A stretch of DNA of 33,607 nt. Source: a virus. Made by a program: the position numbers and the translations under genes. The notes beneath the pieces were generated by a model, which searched no databases, was not told the origin of the DNA, and was given only the letters and a program-made list of their open reading frames with translations. The stretch spans positions 1 through 33,607 of IMG/VR virus record IMGVR_UViG_3300006802_000286; one strand, 5' to 3'. This document shows, in pieces, positions 1 through 33,607 of this stretch (the stretch's first letter is position 1; every line of letters begins with the position of its first letter).

Positions 1-400
1 GCGATGCCCCCCCTTGTGCGTTGCCCTCCCCCCCTTGCATCGGACGCCGCTCGACGCGCGCGTGACACGGACGGCAGAGCGTGATGAGGTTGGTCTCCTC
101 GAAGGCCAGATCAGGACGGGCCCGGAGCCCGATGACGTGATGAACAGTCAGCCGGTCAGTCGCGCCGCAGCGCACGCACGCTCCGTCGCGCAGACGGATG
201 CGTCGTGACATCCGACGCCACGCGGCCGACGTGATGAACGCCTGGTGCTCGGTGCGCGCTGGGGTCGCCTCGCGGCGCGGCCGTTGCCGCTCCTTCTCCC
301 GCTCGCGCTGGCGGACTGGCGCGTAGCAGATGCGGCAGCGCCCGCGCGTGATCTCGTCGACCGTCCGACCACAGTCCATGCAGATGAAGGAATGGCTCAT
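1..400 (-). CDS. HNH endonuclease, partial (runs off left edge)
   Basis: The frame opens at an ATG at 400 and stays open for 133 codons to the edge of the window. An N-terminal zinc knuckle (C7, C10, C22, C25) is followed by a basic helical stretch and then the HNH core: C75-x2-C78, H87-H88, N104, and C109-x2-C112-H113. This is the expected order for a phage HNH nuclease with structural zinc. In many cos phages such a gene sits next to the terminase and is needed for packaging-end cleavage. Here it would lie just upstream of the methyltransferase and terminase genes if the window ends are joined. The tail of the visible protein is Gly/Gln rich and is encoded by two runs of seven G. No good Shine-Dalgarno precedes the ATG, so the start is less sure than the family. 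Confidence 0.8.
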   Translation of the reverse strand, partial: MSHSFICMDCGRTVDEITRGRCRICYAPVRQREREKERQRPRREATPARTEHQAFITSAAWRRMSRRIRLRDGACVRCGATDRLTVHHVIGLRARPDLAFEETNLITLCRPCHARVERRPMQGGEGNAQGGAS

Positions 401-470: not shown

Positions 471-520
471 GATACCCGGGGGCCTACCCCGGGGGACTAC
501 CCCGGGGGGTATCTCCGGGG
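471..520. repeat. cluster of CCCGGG palindromes in a 169-bp intergenic gap
   Basis: The gap between the HNH gene and the gene ending at 570 holds no supported coding sequence. Inside it, TACCC(C)GGGGG occurs three times, at 473, 485 and 498, spaced 12 to 13 bases, with a further CCGGGG at 516. The cluster is bracketed by GATACC (471-476) and GGTATC (508-513), which are inverted. It could be a protein-binding array, a strong folded RNA or part of a cos/packaging site. The function is unknown. Confidence 0.55.
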
Positions 521-569
521 CAGCTGCGCGGCACCGGGGGCCTATCGACCCCACCTCGCGCCGCGAACA

Positions 570-815
570 CTAGCGGTCGGAGCGGACATCATGCAAGCGC
601 ACGTCGCGCTGATCGGGCCTCGTGCCCGGGATGTGACCGCCCACGCCGCCGATCACGGGGATGCCACGCAGCCTGCGCTCATCGGCCGGCGCACCTCGGG
701 GGTCCATGCGTGGCGCGGTGCCCGAGGTCTCCGACTCACGCAGCGCTGTCTCCACCAGGCGCGCGTGCTCCTTGTCCAGCCTCGCCCGCTGAACTGCTGC
801 CAGCAGCTTCGACAC
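570..815 (-). CDS. hypothetical protein, 81 aa
   Basis: GTG start at 815 with a near-perfect ribosome binding site (AAGGAGG, six bases upstream). The N-terminal half is helical and charged, consistent with a small DNA-associated or regulatory protein. The C-terminal half is Gly/Arg rich and less protein-like. It begins inside the last 80 bases of the upstream HTH gene in another frame, so the two genes overlap. I do not recognise a family. The strong ribosome binding site is the main support. Confidence 0.5.
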   Translation of the reverse strand: MSKLLAAVQRARLDKEHARLVETALRESETSGTAPRMDPRGAPADERRLRGIPVIGGVGGHIPGTRPDQRDVRLHDVRSDR

Positions 816-1014
816 GTTCCGCCTCCTTGGTGATCTTCACGACCGCGCGCCGCCAGTGCTCGCGCACGGTGTCAGGCCCGATCCCCAGCATCAGGGAGAT
901 CGACTTCCACCCCATCCCGGTCTCCCGCAGCCGGACTACCTCGATCTGCTTCTTGGTGCACACGCGCCTGGCGATGTCCATGAGCTCGGCCGGGGAGAGT
1001 CCGAGGTTGTTCAC
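736..1014 (-). CDS. small helix-turn-helix protein, sigma-region-4/LuxR-like
   Basis: 92 residues from a GTG at 1014. Residues about 20 to 58 form a helix-turn-helix of the sigma-70 region 4 or LuxR type: a TKKQIEVVRLRETG helix, then GWKSISLMLGIGPDTV, then a basic helix with HWRRAVVKI. This family binds DNA and, in phages, usually acts as a transcription regulator or late activator. The Ala/Gly-rich C-terminus overlaps the next gene. The start codon itself lies inside one copy of the GTGAACA heptamer that is repeated upstream, so the gene could be autoregulated through that array. That link is inference. Confidence 0.65.
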   Translation of the reverse strand: MNNLGLSPAELMDIARRVCTKKQIEVVRLRETGMGWKSISLMLGIGPDTVREHWRRAVVKITKEAERVEAAGSSSAGEAGQGARAPGGDSAA

Positions 1015-1183
1015 GCCTGCACCGTGCCGATGTTCACTTGTTCACTGTTCACGTCTCTCTCTCTCACACGTTTACTTCTCATTGCTTTATTTATTGCTAT
1101 TTGCGGGGTTCTGAAACGGCGCGCGAGAGAAAGAGAGCGCGCGTCTAGTGAACAGTGAACAGGTGAACAATCCCACTGTTCAC
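1008..1183. repeat. heptamer array GTGAACA with AT-rich core; candidate replication origin or operator
   Basis: TGTTCAC occurs at 1008, 1031, 1039 and 1046. The inverse GTGAACA occurs at 1148, 1155 and 1163, and TGTTCAC again at 1177. The triplets at 1031-1052 and 1148-1169 form a 22-bp inverted repeat with one mismatch, spaced 8/7 and 7/8. Inside them lie a CT-rich tract (1053-1066) and a GA-rich tract (about 1125-1139), and in the centre the most AT-rich stretch of the neighbourhood (about 1067-1116). It fills the 172-bp gap between the primase-helicase and the HTH gene. Iterons around an AT-rich core resemble an origin. An operator for the HTH protein, or a large attenuator hairpin, are alternatives. 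Confidence 0.6.
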
Positions 1184-1186
1184 GCC

Positions 1187-2473
1187 TCACGACGGCTCCT
1201 GGACGAGCCAGTAACGCACGCTGCGGCCCTGCTCGCGGTAGTCGATCAGCCCTGCTGCGGCAGCCGCTCCGATGGCACGCCGAACCCTGTCGGCGGGGAA
1301 CTTCACCCTGCCGTTGCTGCGATGCCTGAGCATGAACTCGCGGACGGTGAGCGCGTCGTCCTCGCTGGTGGCGCTGCGCGACCGGGCGAACCTCAGCAGC
1401 GCCTCGACCTCCGGGTCGTGGGTGCTCCCGGTCTCCTCGAGCAGCGGACGGAAGTAGTCGAGCGAGCGCTCCATGACAAGGATCGCCCACCCGATGTCCT
1501 GCGCCTCGATCACCACGTCGGACAGCCGGATCACATCTCGGAACGAGCGCGCCACCGCTGCCAGCGCGGCGAGCTTGACCACGGTGATGCGGGCCCTGCC
1601 CCACAGCTCGGCGGCGCGGTCGGTGGCCGTGTCGCCGGCGGCGGCGTTGTGGCGGTCGAAGTACCTCATGTACCAGGTGTCATAGACCGCGTTGGCGTCG
1701 TCGTTCATCAGGTCGTAGACGTTGCTCACGACGCTCGATGTGGCGACCACCCTCGCCAGCGTGCTGACCTGCTCGCGGATCTCCGACCAGTTGAGGCCGC
1801 CGTTCATGTTCGGCCGGGGCACCGCTCGCACCAGCGGCGGCGAGGGCATGACGATCCACCGGCCGGCGAACCCTGACGAGAACATCGTCTCGGTCACCGC
1901 GCCGCCCAGGACGTGCGGCGGGATGTTCCCCACCATCGTCACGCAGCAGCGCGACGGGAACCGCTTGGTCGCCCTCGTGTGGCTCCCGATGTACCCGTCA
2001 TACACGCCCAGCAGGATGCGCCTGGAACTCTCCTCCCAGCGCGCCGCGTCCTTGGTGAACAGCGTCGCCACCTCGTTCCACGACAGCAGCCACGACGGCG
2101 GGAAGTGCGTCTCCCAGTCATCGGCGTCCTCCTTGCTCTCGGCTGCGAGCAGCTCGACGATCCCGGCGTCGGTGGTGCGTATCAGCGGCTCGAACCTCAG
2201 CATGTCCTCGTCGGGCATGTAGGTGCGCGCATCCCTGATGGCCGAGCGCGCGTTGCTCATGGTCGAGGTCTTGGCACCGAGCGCCGACTGGCCGACCACC
2301 AGCTGCCACACATTGCAGAACTCCTCGTTGCTGAACCACGTCAGCCGGAGCTTCGGCGCGGCGATGGCCGAGACCACCGCGATGCCGGTGACCAGGTGCG
2401 CCTCGGGCGCGGCCTCGCCGACGTGCCCGAGCGTGTTGCACCACGTCTTGAGGAACCCGCTGTCGGGGATCAC
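1187..2473 (-). CDS. DUF3987-like primase-helicase/ATPase protein
   Basis: 428 residues from a GTG at 2473 that overlaps the stop of the upstream gene (GTGA). The N-terminal part carries GQSALGAKTS, a degenerate Walker A loop. It is followed by a SWNEV segment and an LLGVYDGYIGSHTR...TMVGNIPPHVL region typical of DUF3987-type phage and mobile-element helicase proteins. The C-terminal 80 residues look like a winged helix (VREFMLRH..., VRRAIGAAAAAGLIDYREQGRSV). The role is probably DNA unwinding or primase partner at phage replication. The adjacent PriCT-like gene and the heptamer array downstream fit this. A longer in-frame reading to 2674 exists but is low-complexity Arg/Gly/Ala and shadows the upstream gene. 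Confidence 0.75.
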   Translation of the reverse strand: MIPDSGFLKTWCNTLGHVGEAAPEAHLVTGIAVVSAIAAPKLRLTWFSNEEFCNVWQLVVGQSALGAKTSTMSNARSAIRDARTYMPDEDMLRFEPLIRTTDAGIVELLAAESKEDADDWETHFPPSWLLSWNEVATLFTKDAARWEESSRRILLGVYDGYIGSHTRATKRFPSRCCVTMVGNIPPHVLGGAVTETMFSSGFAGRWIVMPSPPLVRAVPRPNMNGGLNWSEIREQVSTLARVVATSSVVSNVYDLMNDDANAVYDTWYMRYFDRHNAAAGDTATDRAAELWGRARITVVKLAALAAVARSFRDVIRLSDVVIEAQDIGWAILVMERSLDYFRPLLEETGSTHDPEVEALLRFARSRSATSEDDALTVREFMLRHRSNGRVKFPADRVRRAIGAAAAAGLIDYREQGRSVRYWLVQEPS

Positions 2474-2982
2474 CAGCGCACGGTCCAGTCCGGCGCCCAC
2501 TCGCTCTTGCGCTCGAGCACCCGCGGCCTGACCGCGGCCCGCTTGATCTGCCCGCGCACGACATCCGCCGCCTCGCGCCGGGGCAGCCCGGCCTCGACGC
2601 CGGCCGCGATCAGCGTGTCGCGCGCCGTAGGCTCGGGGAGCTCGCCGCCGGCCACCAGCCTCCCCGCCGCCCACGCGGCACCTGAGAGCGCCTGATTGCG
2701 CCCGGCACCACCTGACACCTCCTGCCAGAACCTCGAGCAGATCGCATCGAGGATGCGCTGCCCCGCGGCACCGGAGTCGAACGCCGGCCGCAGCCTGGCG
2801 CGCTCGGCCGCGATCTGACGGGCCCGCGCCTCGGCGGCCGCGTGCTCCTCGCGGATCGCCACGAGCTCAGCCTCGATCCGGTCAGCGCCGCGCGCGGCCT
2901 CGTCGGCCTCGAGCCAGTGGGCAGAGCACACGCCCTGCATGACCATCTGCTCGGTGCAGTGCGGCACGGAGCAGATGGTCAT
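2470..2982 (-). CDS. zinc-finger protein with primase C-terminal (PriCT-like) domain
   Basis: 170 residues from an ATG at 2982. The N-terminus has a compact C4-C9-C18-H21 zinc knuckle, then an Ala/Glu-rich coiled coil (about 25 to 65). From about residue 100 it has NQALSGAAWAAGRLVAGGEL with a run of helices ending in GLPRREAADVVRGQI. That pattern is seen in the C-terminal helical domain of prim-pol/DUF3987 phage primases. I infer an accessory primase subunit acting with the downstream DUF3987 protein, whose GTG overlaps this stop. The start codon sits inside a 16-bp perfect hairpin and is coupled to a 16-residue leader ORF. A GTG at 3018 in frame lacks a suitably spaced ribosome binding site. 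Confidence 0.65.
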   Translation of the reverse strand: MTICSVPHCTEQMVMQGVCSAHWLEADEAARGADRIEAELVAIREEHAAAEARARQIAAERARLRPAFDSGAAGQRILDAICSRFWQEVSGGAGRNQALSGAAWAAGRLVAGGELPEPTARDTLIAAGVEAGLPRREAADVVRGQIKRAAVRPRVLERKSEWAPDWTVRW

Positions 2983-2984
2983 GC
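2937..2984 (-). promoter_or_regulatory. 16-bp perfect hairpin over the start codon of the PriCT-like gene
   Basis: The arms GCATGACCATCTGCTC and GAGCAGATGGTCATGC (2937-2952 and 2969-2984) are perfect inverse complements separated by 16 bases. The loop itself has a further GTGC/GCAC pairing after one mismatch. In the minus-strand mRNA, the ATG at 2982 and the stop of the leader ORF are both in the stem, so an unopened hairpin would hide the start. A ribosome translating the leader ORF would reach and open it. Coupled translation control is inferred; a DNA-binding site is the alternative. Confidence 0.7.
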
Positions 2985-3029
2985 GCTTTCCCACGTCTTG
3001 GTGTGCTCCGAATGGCACCTCTCACTCAC
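2979..3029 (-). CDS. 16-residue coupled leader ORF
   Basis: GTG at 3029 overlaps the TGA of the upstream gene (GTGA). After 16 sense codons (VSERCHSEHTKTWESA) the TGA at 2981-2979 overlaps the ATG of the PriCT-like gene (ATGA). AGGAGG lies about four bases before the GTG. The peptide has no recognisable domain. Its likely role is to carry ribosomes into the hairpin over the next start. It could be a chance frame, but start/stop overlaps at both ends match the genome's habit. Confidence 0.45.
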   Translation of the reverse strand: MSERCHSEHTKTWESA

Positions 3030-4022: not shown

Positions 4023-4096
4023 CGCGGTGGCCTCAGCGTCCAGATCAGGAGTGCTACGAGGAAGAACACCAACGCCCACATCACGCCGTCGTACAT
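4019..4096 (-). CDS. 25-aa single-helix membrane microprotein
   Basis: ATG at 4096 with AAAGG seven bases upstream. It starts 16 bases before the end of the RuvC-like gene and ends in an ATGA overlap with the zinc-ribbon gene. Residues about 6 to 20 (VMWALVFFLVALLIW) form one hydrophobic helix followed by a positive RPPR tail. That gives an N-out/C-in single-pass design by the positive-inside rule. The function is unknown. Confidence 0.55.
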   Translation of the reverse strand: MYDGVMWALVFFLVALLIWTLRPPR

Positions 4097-4572
4097 GGCT
4101 CGACCTTTCGCAGAGCGGCACACGCGATGGCGGCCGCGTCGATCTCGTCCTGCGTGCGGCCGGCGATCTCCGGCCACTGTCCCTCGGCCCACCTGCGCAC
4201 CGGCTCCTTGCCCGCCTCCCGGATGCCGAGCAGCTGCCGCCATTCGCGTGGCTGGATCAACTCGATCAGCGCGTGGCCGAACACCCGCCAGGCGATGGCC
4301 TCGACGTTGCCGACCCAGCGCGCGTGGTCGACGGTGACCTTGCGGTTGAGGCCCGCGAACGGGGCCTCGACGAACACGCCCACGACATCGACGTCGGCGG
4401 CGTCGGCGGTGTGCAGCACGCCCACCAGCTCGTCGCGCACCGCGCTCAGCGCGTGCCGGCGGTCCTGGTCGTTTCGGTCCACGACGATCGTGCCGGTGGT
4501 GACCAGGCGCTCCTCGTCGGTGATCAGCGCCCAGCCGGTCACGCGCTGAGCGGCGTCGATGCCGAGGATCAT
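4081..4572 (-). CDS. RuvC-like Holliday junction resolvase
   Basis: 163 residues from the ATG at 4572, which overlaps the preceding stop (ATGA). The RNase H-fold signature is complete: ILGIDAA with D6 on the first strand, VFVEAP with E69, and QDEIDAAAIA with D142 and D145. Their spacing matches the four metal-binding acids of RuvC (near 7, 66, 138 and 141 in bacterial RuvC). The length is also close to RuvC. The role is cleavage of branched DNA at recombination or before packaging. It sits in the early replication/accessory operon. Confidence 0.8.
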   Translation of the reverse strand: MILGIDAAQRVTGWALITDEERLVTTGTIVVDRNDQDRRHALSAVRDELVGVLHTADAADVDVVGVFVEAPFAGLNRKVTVDHARWVGNVEAIAWRVFGHALIELIQPREWRQLLGIREAGKEPVRRWAEGQWPEIAGRTQDEIDAAAIACAALRKVEPCTTA

Positions 4573-4652
4573 CGGCTCCCCTCGATCCAGACCAGCATGA
4601 GGATGCCGAGCGCCGTGATCCACTGCGCCACGGTGGACAGGATGGCGGTCAC
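4569..4652 (-). CDS. 27-aa single-helix membrane microprotein
   Basis: GTG at 4652 overlaps the stop of the zinc/HTH gene (GTGA), and its TGA overlaps the ATG of the RuvC-like gene (ATGA). The whole peptide is essentially one transmembrane helix (ILSTVAQWITALGILMLVWI) with a short EGSR tail. Double coupling is good support for translation. The function is unknown. It resembles the 25-aa membrane peptide on the other side of the resolvase. Confidence 0.55.
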   Translation of the reverse strand: MTAILSTVAQWITALGILMLVWIEGSR

Positions 4653-8336: not shown

Positions 8337-9155
8337 CTAGCTTCTGACCTGAGCGGCCGGCAGCGGTGCGTAGACCGCCCGCCACTCCTTGTTGTTCTTC
8401 ACCGCCCACAGCCGCCTGGCGGCCATGAACCACTCAAGGGCGTTCGCGTCGGCGGCCACCGGCACGACATACGCGCTTTCGGGCCTGACGTGGAACACCA
8501 CCGCCCCGTCGACCTCGGGCATGTCGATGACCGTGCCGTCGTCGCCGGTGACGAGCTTGTCGGCGTGCACATAGGCACCGCCGATCTGCGCGGCCATGTC
8601 CTCGTAGACCCCGCGCGATGTCTTGACGTCGGCCACCAGGCGCCTGCGCCCGCGGCCGGGGACGAACATCTCCACGATCAGGTCGAGCGTGCCCGCCCAC
8701 TCGAGGCCCGGGCTCAACCCGTACACCGTGCACTCCGAGTGAATCGGCTCGACCTCGTACTCGGCCATCAGCCCGCGGAGGTTCTGGACGATCAGCTCGG
8801 CGGTCGGCGTGAGATCCGGCTTCTCGGTGCCCTTGATCTGCGCCTCGAGGTACTCGTGGACCATCGTCCCGGCCTGCCCGGCCTCATCGAGCTCCGAGCG
8901 CCATGCGGTCTTGATCGCCGAGAGCGCCATCTTCTCGTCCTGATCGACCAGCGCGGCCAGCGCTCCCGACTTGTGCATCTCAATCGCGCCCTTCGCCGCC
9001 CGGTCGACCTTCCAGTTGGCGATGGCGGGCTTGTCCACCACGCCCAGCACGGTCGTCACCGACGGCACCCACATCTCCGCGTCGGCCGGCGGTGGCGGCC
9101 ACGGGTACAGCCGCGGGCCCCAGCCGTTCTTGGTGGCGTTCCTGGGGGGTGCCAT
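8337..9155 (-). CDS. RecB/Cas4-like PD-(D/E)XK exonuclease
   Basis: 272 residues from the ATG at 9155 (GGGGAG four bases upstream; the GTG at 9158 also overlaps the preceding stop). The nuclease motifs are in order: EWAGTLDLIVEM (metal-binding Asp), LVADVKTSRG (the D-x-K of PD-(D/E)XK), then QIGGAYVHA (the Q-x3-Y motif of the RecB/Cas4 class). An N-terminal WVPSVTTVLGVVDKP segment is common in this phage exonuclease group. It likely resects DNA ends for recombination together with the SSB-like protein encoded next. Confidence 0.8.
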   Translation of the reverse strand: MAPPRNATKNGWGPRLYPWPPPPADAEMWVPSVTTVLGVVDKPAIANWKVDRAAKGAIEMHKSGALAALVDQDEKMALSAIKTAWRSELDEAGQAGTMVHEYLEAQIKGTEKPDLTPTAELIVQNLRGLMAEYEVEPIHSECTVYGLSPGLEWAGTLDLIVEMFVPGRGRRRLVADVKTSRGVYEDMAAQIGGAYVHADKLVTGDDGTVIDMPEVDGAVVFHVRPESAYVVPVAADANALEWFMAARRLWAVKNNKEWRAVYAPLPAAQVRS

Positions 9156-9436
9156 CACGCTCCCCGTTCCGGCGGGAGCAGGGGCGAGCGCTCCCGAACG
9201 CGCTCTAGCCCCTGCTCACCGACCGCGGACGTAGCCATCGCCCGGCCGCAGGGAGTTGCGGCCATGATGCGGGGGACGTCGATGACCTGCGCGCCCCGCG
9301 CGCGCCCGGTTGCCCGGGGGAGGTGCCGCTCCATGAGAACGGCGGCCGTCGGCTCGAACGTCTGACCGGCCCTCGCGCTCAGTGCGATGCGCGGGGTCTT
9401 GTGCCGCCGACCGGCGGCCTCGGTGTGGGTGCTCAT
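9155..9436 (-). CDS. hypothetical protein, 93 aa
   Basis: ATG at 9436 overlaps the stop of the small membrane protein (ATGA). The protein is basic and polar with no recognised domain (TPRIALSARAGQTFEPTAAVLM...). The last 20 codons contain a strong hairpin in the DNA (9176-9217). Coupling on both sides is the main support. Confidence 0.5.
   Translation of the reverse strand: MSTHTEAAGRRHKTPRIALSARAGQTFEPTAAVLMERHLPRATGRARGAQVIDVPRIMAATPCGRAMATSAVGEQGLERVRERSPLLPPERGA
9176..9217 (-). promoter_or_regulatory. 16-bp bulged hairpin before the nuclease gene
   Basis: GAGCAGGGGC (9176-9185) pairs with GCCCCTGCTC (9208-9217), and GAGCGC (9186-9191) with GCGCTC (9200-9205), with a two-base bulge and an 8-base loop. 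It lies in coding sequence 20 bases upstream of the nuclease start, with no U-tract after it. A translational or processing element seems more likely than a terminator. Confidence 0.5.
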
Positions 9437-9594
9437 CCGAACACCCGCTGGATGAGCTCTGCGAGGTACGGCCCGGTGTAGTCGAGTGTGTACCTGGTGG
9501 AGAGGAACACCGCGAGCATCGACGCCACGATGATCCACATGAGAAGGGTCGCCGGCGTCAGCGCGCGCTTGCGGCCGCGGTGGTGGCGCCTCAC
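9433..9594 (-). CDS. 53-aa single-pass membrane protein
   Basis: GTG at 9594 overlaps the prim-pol stop (GTGA), and the stop overlaps the next ATG (ATGA). A strongly basic N-terminus (RRHHRGRKR) precedes one hydrophobic helix (about 13 to 31, ATLLMWIIVASMLAVFL) and an amphipathic C-terminal part ending LAELIQRVFG. The topology should be N-in. No family is recognised. It is one of three tiny membrane proteins in the early region. Confidence 0.6.
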   Translation of the reverse strand: MRRHHRGRKRALTPATLLMWIIVASMLAVFLSTRYTLDYTGPYLAELIQRVFG

Positions 9595-10277
9595 TGCGCA
9601 CCGCCCCAAACGTGCTTCTGGACAAGGTGCTCAGGCACACCGCGATCAAGCAGCATCGTCGCAAGGCGGTCAGCCGACAGCAGTGGCGACTGGGTGTAGT
9701 GTGGCCGCTGGCCGCTAGTGCGTGCTCCATCCCTTGTGCGCAGCAGCGATGCAAGCGCAGCGGGCAGGGGCGGGACGTCGGTTAGCGAAACAAGCTCGCG
9801 CTGCGCGACCCATGACCGTGTCACGCCCGACGGCATGAGGGACGGCGGTGCGACCACGTTCTCACTCTTGATCTCGAGGCCGGGAGCCAACAGACCCGGA
9901 CCATCTTCCGTGCGCACGAAGTAATGCACCCCACGCGCGGTTACTGCGCATGGCATCTGCTCAAGATCCGCGTGGGACACGAGATCCTCAAGGGCGTCAG
10001 CGCCATCGGATGAATCAACGTCTATGACCGCCAGGCCGATCGCCCTGAGACGCAGCCCGATGTTGGCCGGATGCCCTTCACGCTGCAAGTGCGCGAACGT
10101 CGCCTCGGTGGCGTCCGGGTCCGCCGTGATCATCTGCCAGCCACGGTGCCGCGGATGTTTCCCTGCACTCCGGCAGTGTTCGCCCAGCGGGCACGAGCAG
10201 GCGCCGCCTGGCGCTATGCCCCACAGTGGGATGACCGGAATGCCCATCTGCGCGTAGCGGGCTGCGTGGCGCCTCAT
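9591..10277 (-). CDS. standalone prim-pol (bifunctional primase/polymerase N-terminal) domain
   Basis: 228 residues from the ATG at 10277 (ATGA overlap). The protein is the archaeo-eukaryotic-type prim-pol domain. It opens with YAQMGIPVIPLWG, has a Cys-rich insert (CSCPLGEHC), then HPRHRGWQ, the metal-binding AVIDVDSSDG, an HYFVRT strand, and ENVVAPPSLMPSG. It makes primers and may extend them. Many phages fuse this domain to a helicase; here the helicase-like part (1187-2473) is about 7 kb away across the integrase. Confidence 0.85.
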   Translation of the reverse strand: MRRHAARYAQMGIPVIPLWGIAPGGACSCPLGEHCRSAGKHPRHRGWQMITADPDATEATFAHLQREGHPANIGLRLRAIGLAVIDVDSSDGADALEDLVSHADLEQMPCAVTARGVHYFVRTEDGPGLLAPGLEIKSENVVAPPSLMPSGVTRSWVAQRELVSLTDVPPLPAALASLLRTRDGARTSGQRPHYTQSPLLSADRLATMLLDRGVPEHLVQKHVWGGAQ

Positions 10278-33577: not shown

Positions 33578-33607
33578 CGCCTTTCAGGTTGGGTTTCCGT
33601 CAGAAAA

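Follow-up and report, generated by a model that had tools for sequence, protein, structure and literature searches.

The array at positions 1008-1183 of the window (the whole stretch of DNA analysed here, 33,607 bp with about 68% GC and a complete IMG/VR virus record) is probably, at roughly 70%, the replication origin of this phage, and the helicase encoded at 1187..2473 would be the protein that recognises it. Such an origin would most likely be helicase-loaded and bidirectional. We favor this reading because the location and layout of the array match those of SaPI/PICI origins, because GTGAACA arrays elsewhere adjoin initiator-type helicases without any homologue of the window's helix-turn-helix (HTH) protein, and because the array is kept, with a concerted change of its repeat unit, in the related phages L148, L126 and L128. 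The interpretation of these repeats as an origin, put forward in an earlier note on this DNA, is supported by the annotation of the P4 ori, by other mirrored arrays adjacent to helicase genes and by the SaPI/PICI layout.

The motif search recovered all eight exact copies of GTGAACA that the earlier note had placed in this interval (Table 1), and the details of its description hold as well. The two triplets are mirrored, being reverse complements of each other with one mismatch in 22 bp; single copies lie over the proposed start codon of the HTH gene and at 1177; the CT- and GA-rich tracts are confirmed and form an inverted repeat (1054-1070/1120-1136, 82%); and the AT-rich core between the triplets has the lowest GC of any 40 bp in the genome (0.30, with the next-lowest 40-bp stretch of the record at 0.425). 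The triplets are separated by a 95-bp spacer, the iterons are spaced at 7-8 bp, and the first of them lies 3 bp past the helicase stop (1183 vs 1187), a placement repeated in L148, L126 and L128. The record holds 18 copies of GTGAACA against 2.0 expected from shuffles; the 10 copies outside the cluster correspond to an expectation of 0.05 per 176 bp (P(≥8) ~1e-15), and the interval is the densest heptamer cluster of the record, other heptamers reaching at most five non-overlapping copies per such span. No Rfam family was found for the array region. As DNA it folds better than shuffled sequences (z −3.6), but the mirrored arms alone explain this strength, and a stem-loop reading of the array was rejected. 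The spacer's CT and GA tracts persist in the relatives; two other high-GC phages, L171 (4890-4920) and L190 (about 7000), have a CTCTCTCTC tract amid their iterons.

Table 1. Features of the predicted origin region and of associated genes in the window
Feature	Position	Strand	Basis
HTH protein, 92 aa (sigma region 4 / GerE-like)	736..1014	-	weak Pfam and PHROG HTH matches
GTGAACA copies	1008, 1031, 1039, 1046, 1177	-	motif search
GTGAACA copies	1148, 1155, 1163	+	motif search
Outer iteron on the HTH side, supplying the proposed GTG start of the HTH gene	1008..1014	-	
Iteron triplet, HTH side; mirror of 1148-1169 (one mismatch)	1031..1052	-	motif search, alignment
CT-rich tract in spacer	1053..1066	.	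sequence; inverted repeat
AT-rich core, putative unwinding element	1062..1101	.	GC 0.30, genome minimum for 40 bp
GA-rich tract in spacer (GA on + strand)	1120..1140	.	sequence; pairs with 1054-1070; kept in relatives
Iteron triplet, helicase side (GTGAACAGTGAACAGGTGAACA)	1148..1169	+	motif search; conserved in relatives
Outer iteron, helicase side	1177..1183	-	GTGAACA
Helicase gene, putative origin-recognising initiator	1187..2473	-	phrog_3022 match; relatives
RuvC-like resolvase (ORF)	4081-4623		
Phage exonuclease	8337-9158		
Prim-Pol primase/polymerase	9591..10277	-	PF09250, E 1.7e-21

The window resembles an actinophage genome in its high GC; it is a full-sized phage that encodes capsid, tail and terminase proteins of its own, and the portal, capsid, tape-measure and terminase genes can be identified on the minus strand. 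Read in gene direction, the early region encodes the Prim-Pol, the exonuclease, the RuvC-like resolvase and the helicase-type protein, followed by the array, the HTH gene, a small conserved ORF and an HNH gene; past the junction of the record ends come a ParB_N/N6-N4 methyltransferase and then the terminase genes. Among the longer early-region ORFs, Pfam and PHROG scans detected neither another helicase nor a helicase loader or an initiator of Rep type, which argues for the helicase at the array as the initiator, and the Prim-Pol is the likely primer maker for the predicted origin. The GC skew, which the earlier note had proposed as a check, lends no support to an origin at this place: its cumulative minimum lies near 13 kb and nothing specific is seen at 1 kb, in a genome with almost all genes on one strand. 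By blastn, the first 8 kb of the window matched no annotated phage.

Several other features of the genome deserve mention. The HNH frame leaves the record at its start (window 1-400) and meets a stop three codons past the join to 33607, so that the genome may be complete in this record. In many related contigs the end coincides with a shared TTTCTGACGGA-like motif or lies up to about 30 bp from it; this holds for the window itself (33590-33607, with the end reading TTTTCTGACGGA in reverse complement) and for the starts of L142, L143, L149, L150, L151 and L152. L127 and L148 continue through the motif, which there lies between the HNH gene and the methyltransferase or terminase genes. This shared end is probably a packaging (cos-like) end. 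A second close inverted repeat (2936-2985, arms of about 24 bp, GACCATCTGCTC...GAGCAGATGGTC) lies within the gene that precedes the helicase gene. The small ORF at 570-815 (ERRLRGIPVIGGVGGHIPGTRPDQR...) overlaps the 3' end of the HTH gene and is strongly conserved in L126 and L128.

The helicase is a 428-aa protein read from a GTG whose position overlaps the preceding stop; it carries a degenerate P-loop (GQSALGAKTS) and matches phrog_3022, 'DNA primase', with E 2.6e-13. The neighbor of the array had been described as a primase-helicase, and of this label the helicase-type assignment stands and the primase part falls, as no primase domain was found and the phage has a separate Prim-Pol. The protein has no Pfam match, and no PDB chain resembles it by sequence at E <0.05. 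Its AlphaFold model is poor overall (mean pLDDT 45), the ATPase core not being placeable. Residues 353-425 are modelled as a winged helix (pLDDT about 80-89) and match winged-helix DNA-binding domains with Z 9-10 and rmsd 1.4-2.2 over 62-64 residues; the P4 origin-binding domain is absent among the best 50 structural matches listed. Judging from the model, this C-terminal winged helix is a plausible DNA-binding domain of a fold that does not indicate its target.

Assignment of the helicase to the P4 alpha or DUF927 families was considered and rejected, since there is no detectable sequence relation. Profile comparison with P4 alpha gave E 0.6 over the full length and 0.056 for the C-terminus, with profiles shallow enough to leave room for deep kinship; the comparison, with the same shallow profiles, gave no detectable homology to Cch helicases, and no DUF927 domain occurs in the window record. 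The sole database homologue is a distant one, Mae-JY09 (24.7% identity), and no GTGAACA array lies 3' of its gene, which speaks against the origin reading. A search of 394 Actinomycetia genomes, run with no positive control, yielded no helicase relatives. The window helicase probably works like the P4 alpha and DUF927 helicases despite belonging to a separate family. Its C-terminal winged helix would bind each GTGAACA, and two helicase rings would form on the opposed triplets, facing each other head to head; this binding would melt the AT-rich core between them, and the rings would then unwind in both directions, moving apart, with primers supplied by the phage Prim-Pol or by the host primase.

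Searches of viral and genome contigs with the HTH protein or the helicase alone returned no matches, and a two-row alignment of the helicase with Mae-JY09 reached L126 and its near-identical counterpart L127 as well as L128, with helicases 56-57% identical to that of the window. L148 (helicase 63%) was added by terminase and helicase searches. Across the relatives, identity is 56-64% for the helicase and 57-68% for the HTH protein, with a value of 73% for the HTH protein of L148. The only genome-contig match, L141, covers 58 residues with no other window phage gene nearby and looks spurious. Conservation of the array, on which the earlier note had staked its proposal, was seen in all three independent relatives found with the same neighbor genes; the layout is thus kept between the same two genes in four distinct phages (the window, L148, L126=L127 and L128), the relatives' arrays being mirrored around an AT-rich core with a minimum GC over 40 bp of 0.275-0.40. 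An HTH-based search gave the same phages, so the helicase and the HTH protein are not separable by presence, and as both genes flank the array in all four, presence or absence cannot separate their roles within this clade.

The window has GTGAACA at all eight sites; the units of L148 are mixed (TGTTCCC, TGTTCAC, TGTTCAC on one arm and GGGAACA, GTGAACA, GGGAACA on the other); L126 has GGGAACA in both triplets; and L128 has it in both triplets and at the flanking site, with GGGAACG outermost. Since repeats free of constraint would be unlikely to drift in step on the two arms, this concerted change, read from the sequences, indicates a DNA-binding protein that would recognise every copy. The C-terminus of the helicase splits cleanly into window/L148 and L126/L128, in parallel to the units. 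On the other hand, the recognition helix of the HTH protein is nearly the same in L128 and the window (PDTVREHHRRA vs PDTVREHWRRA), although the L128 units are GGGAACA. That the helicase C-terminus and not the HTH helix appears to track the units in these four phages is a hint in favor of the helicase as the binder.

A scan of viral contigs for three close copies of GTGAACA returned at least 119 stretches, and a P4-alpha homologue is encoded in 73 among the 119 listed; homologues of the window HTH protein in these loci were absent among the matches listed. Arrays inside long open frames (L005, L010, L043, L051, L071 and L079) were not counted as origins. The mirrored arrangement was sought separately, as TGTTCAC pairs followed after a gap of 75-105 bp by GTGAACA, and 28 stretches including the contig of L148 were found, with only a few expected by chance on a rough estimate that assumes equal base use. 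In half of them (14/28) the array lies no more than 300 bp from the end of a gene for an initiator-type helicase or primase. Seven of these 14 genes belong to the DUF927 (Cch/SaPIbov1-Rep-like) type at 3-23 bp (L029, L072, L078, L179, L184, L186 and L187; L179 was placed here by its length and by an array spacing matching L072 exactly), four are D5/DUF5906 (L091, L174, L177 and L178), and one each is VapE-like (L175), of phrog_35358 (L190) and of the window's own helicase family (L170=L148). The remaining mirrored stretches include some P4-type elements (L046, L088) and some with no identified neighbor. GTGAACA triplets also lie directly 3' of proteins of about 910 aa in L084 (3169-3193) and L116 (7381-7405), whose sole match is a C-terminal one to the uncharacterised family phrog_6437; these are possibly further helicase-origin pairs.

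A dual role of the array, which we regard as quite possible but less likely than not, would add to the helicase-read origin a function of the iterons in the HTH promoter, binding by the helicase or the HTH protein thereby coupling replication to a late-gene switch. The gene order fits this idea, since in the joined map the HTH gene comes ahead of the genes for HNH, methyltransferase and terminase, as do the sigma region 4-like character of the HTH domain and its weak matches, which are Streptococcus phage HTH proteins encoded near the end of those records; however, the genome contains no second GTGAACA array. It is considerably less likely that the array is an operator only, bound by the HTH protein to autoregulate its own gene and those downstream. 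The heptamers would cover the start codon and promoter region of the HTH gene, the outermost copy providing the proposed start codon itself, and this gene directly follows the array in 4/4 phages. Nevertheless, the arrays found elsewhere flank helicase genes with no homologue of the window HTH protein, and the contrast between a nearly constant HTH helix and a helicase C-terminus that differs between the unit groups speaks against the HTH protein as the sole reader. A scan of 500-3000 found no sigma-70-like promoter (and no terminator), and symmetric triplets around the most AT-rich stretch exceed the needs of an operator. A role of the array in partition, as a centromere-like site bound by a protein resembling ParB or TubR, is very improbable: iteron arrays are typical of such sites and the methyltransferase carries a ParB_N domain, but that domain is fused to a methylase, no partition ATPase occurs among the ORFs scanned, and the array lies between the helicase and HTH genes and not beside a partition pair.

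Returning to the origin read by the helicase, we tentatively suggest, at somewhat less than even odds, that GTGAACA is a shared origin word of several helicase families (P4-alpha D5/SF3, DUF927/Cch, VapE-like, phrog_35358 and the window's phrog_3022), unrelated or related beyond recognition, in satellites as well as complete phages, and that the present clade has been caught changing it in concert to GGGAACA via a mixed intermediate. Whether a single heptamer came to stand next to several helicase families by common descent or by convergence is the question posed by these arrays, and since the shallow profiles gave no detectable homology of the window helicase to P4 alpha or Cch helicases, the common heptamer could be due to convergence. 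The series from GTGAACA to GGGAACA (window, L148, L126/L128) constitutes a natural experiment on the co-change of origin and binder specificity. Predicted origins are also gained for phages with no annotated ones.

Among known systems, SaPI origins consist of iterons directly downstream of the rep helicase gene that are recognised by the C-terminal domain of the helicase, apparently as two hexamers (PMC7581432). In PICI origins, which follow the initiator gene immediately on its 3' side, an AT-rich region is 'always' flanked by two iteron sets; the authors of that study knew this layout in no other bacterial replicon (PMC6092414). The window shares the array directly 3' of a putative initiator helicase gene, the two iteron sets around an AT-rich region and, by model, a C-terminal winged helix predicted to bind DNA; it differs in being a full-sized tailed phage and not a small satellite virus, and in having a helicase of another family plus a separate Prim-Pol. 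P4 alpha binds origin repeats through a winged-helix domain before unwinding and priming (PMC4234260), and in the P4 record X51522 GGTGAACA carries the annotation 'ori type 1 repeat', with six in ori and ten in crr, the latter ending 45 bp from the alpha stop. The likeness lies in the same heptamer, in several copies in both orientations, and in the position of crr just 3' of alpha; GTGAACA is identical, whereas the first G of the P4 octamer is not conserved in the window. P4 also differs in the 10-11 bp distance between ori units, in the splitting of its repeats over two sites and in alpha being a single-chain primase-helicase (Toprim, D5_N, DUF5906, Pox_D5). A further close parallel is offered by the mirrored GTGAACA arrays that follow DUF927 helicase genes (e.g. 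L029, L184, L186 and L187), none of which we found described in the literature. These read TGTTCAC x3, an AT-rich core of 80-89 bp and GTGAACA x3, beginning at most 23 bp from the helicase stop; in L029 the helicase stop is followed by a triplet, an 89-bp AT-rich core, the mirrored triplet and an extra single copy, the same triplet-core-triplet order as in the window with its slightly longer spacer, and close to a duplicate of its plan. Their units are 8-9 bp apart and their helicase combines DUF927 with HTH_56; the window iterons are thus more tightly spaced than those of P4 and Cch-type arrays (8-11 bp), a difference that counts against the origin reading. Overall, the window has a probable helicase-adjacent origin that would work in the manner of SaPI, PICI and P4, in a full-sized phage with a different helicase and a unit changing in concert, and the presence of this layout in such phages would widen the PICI-type origin class.
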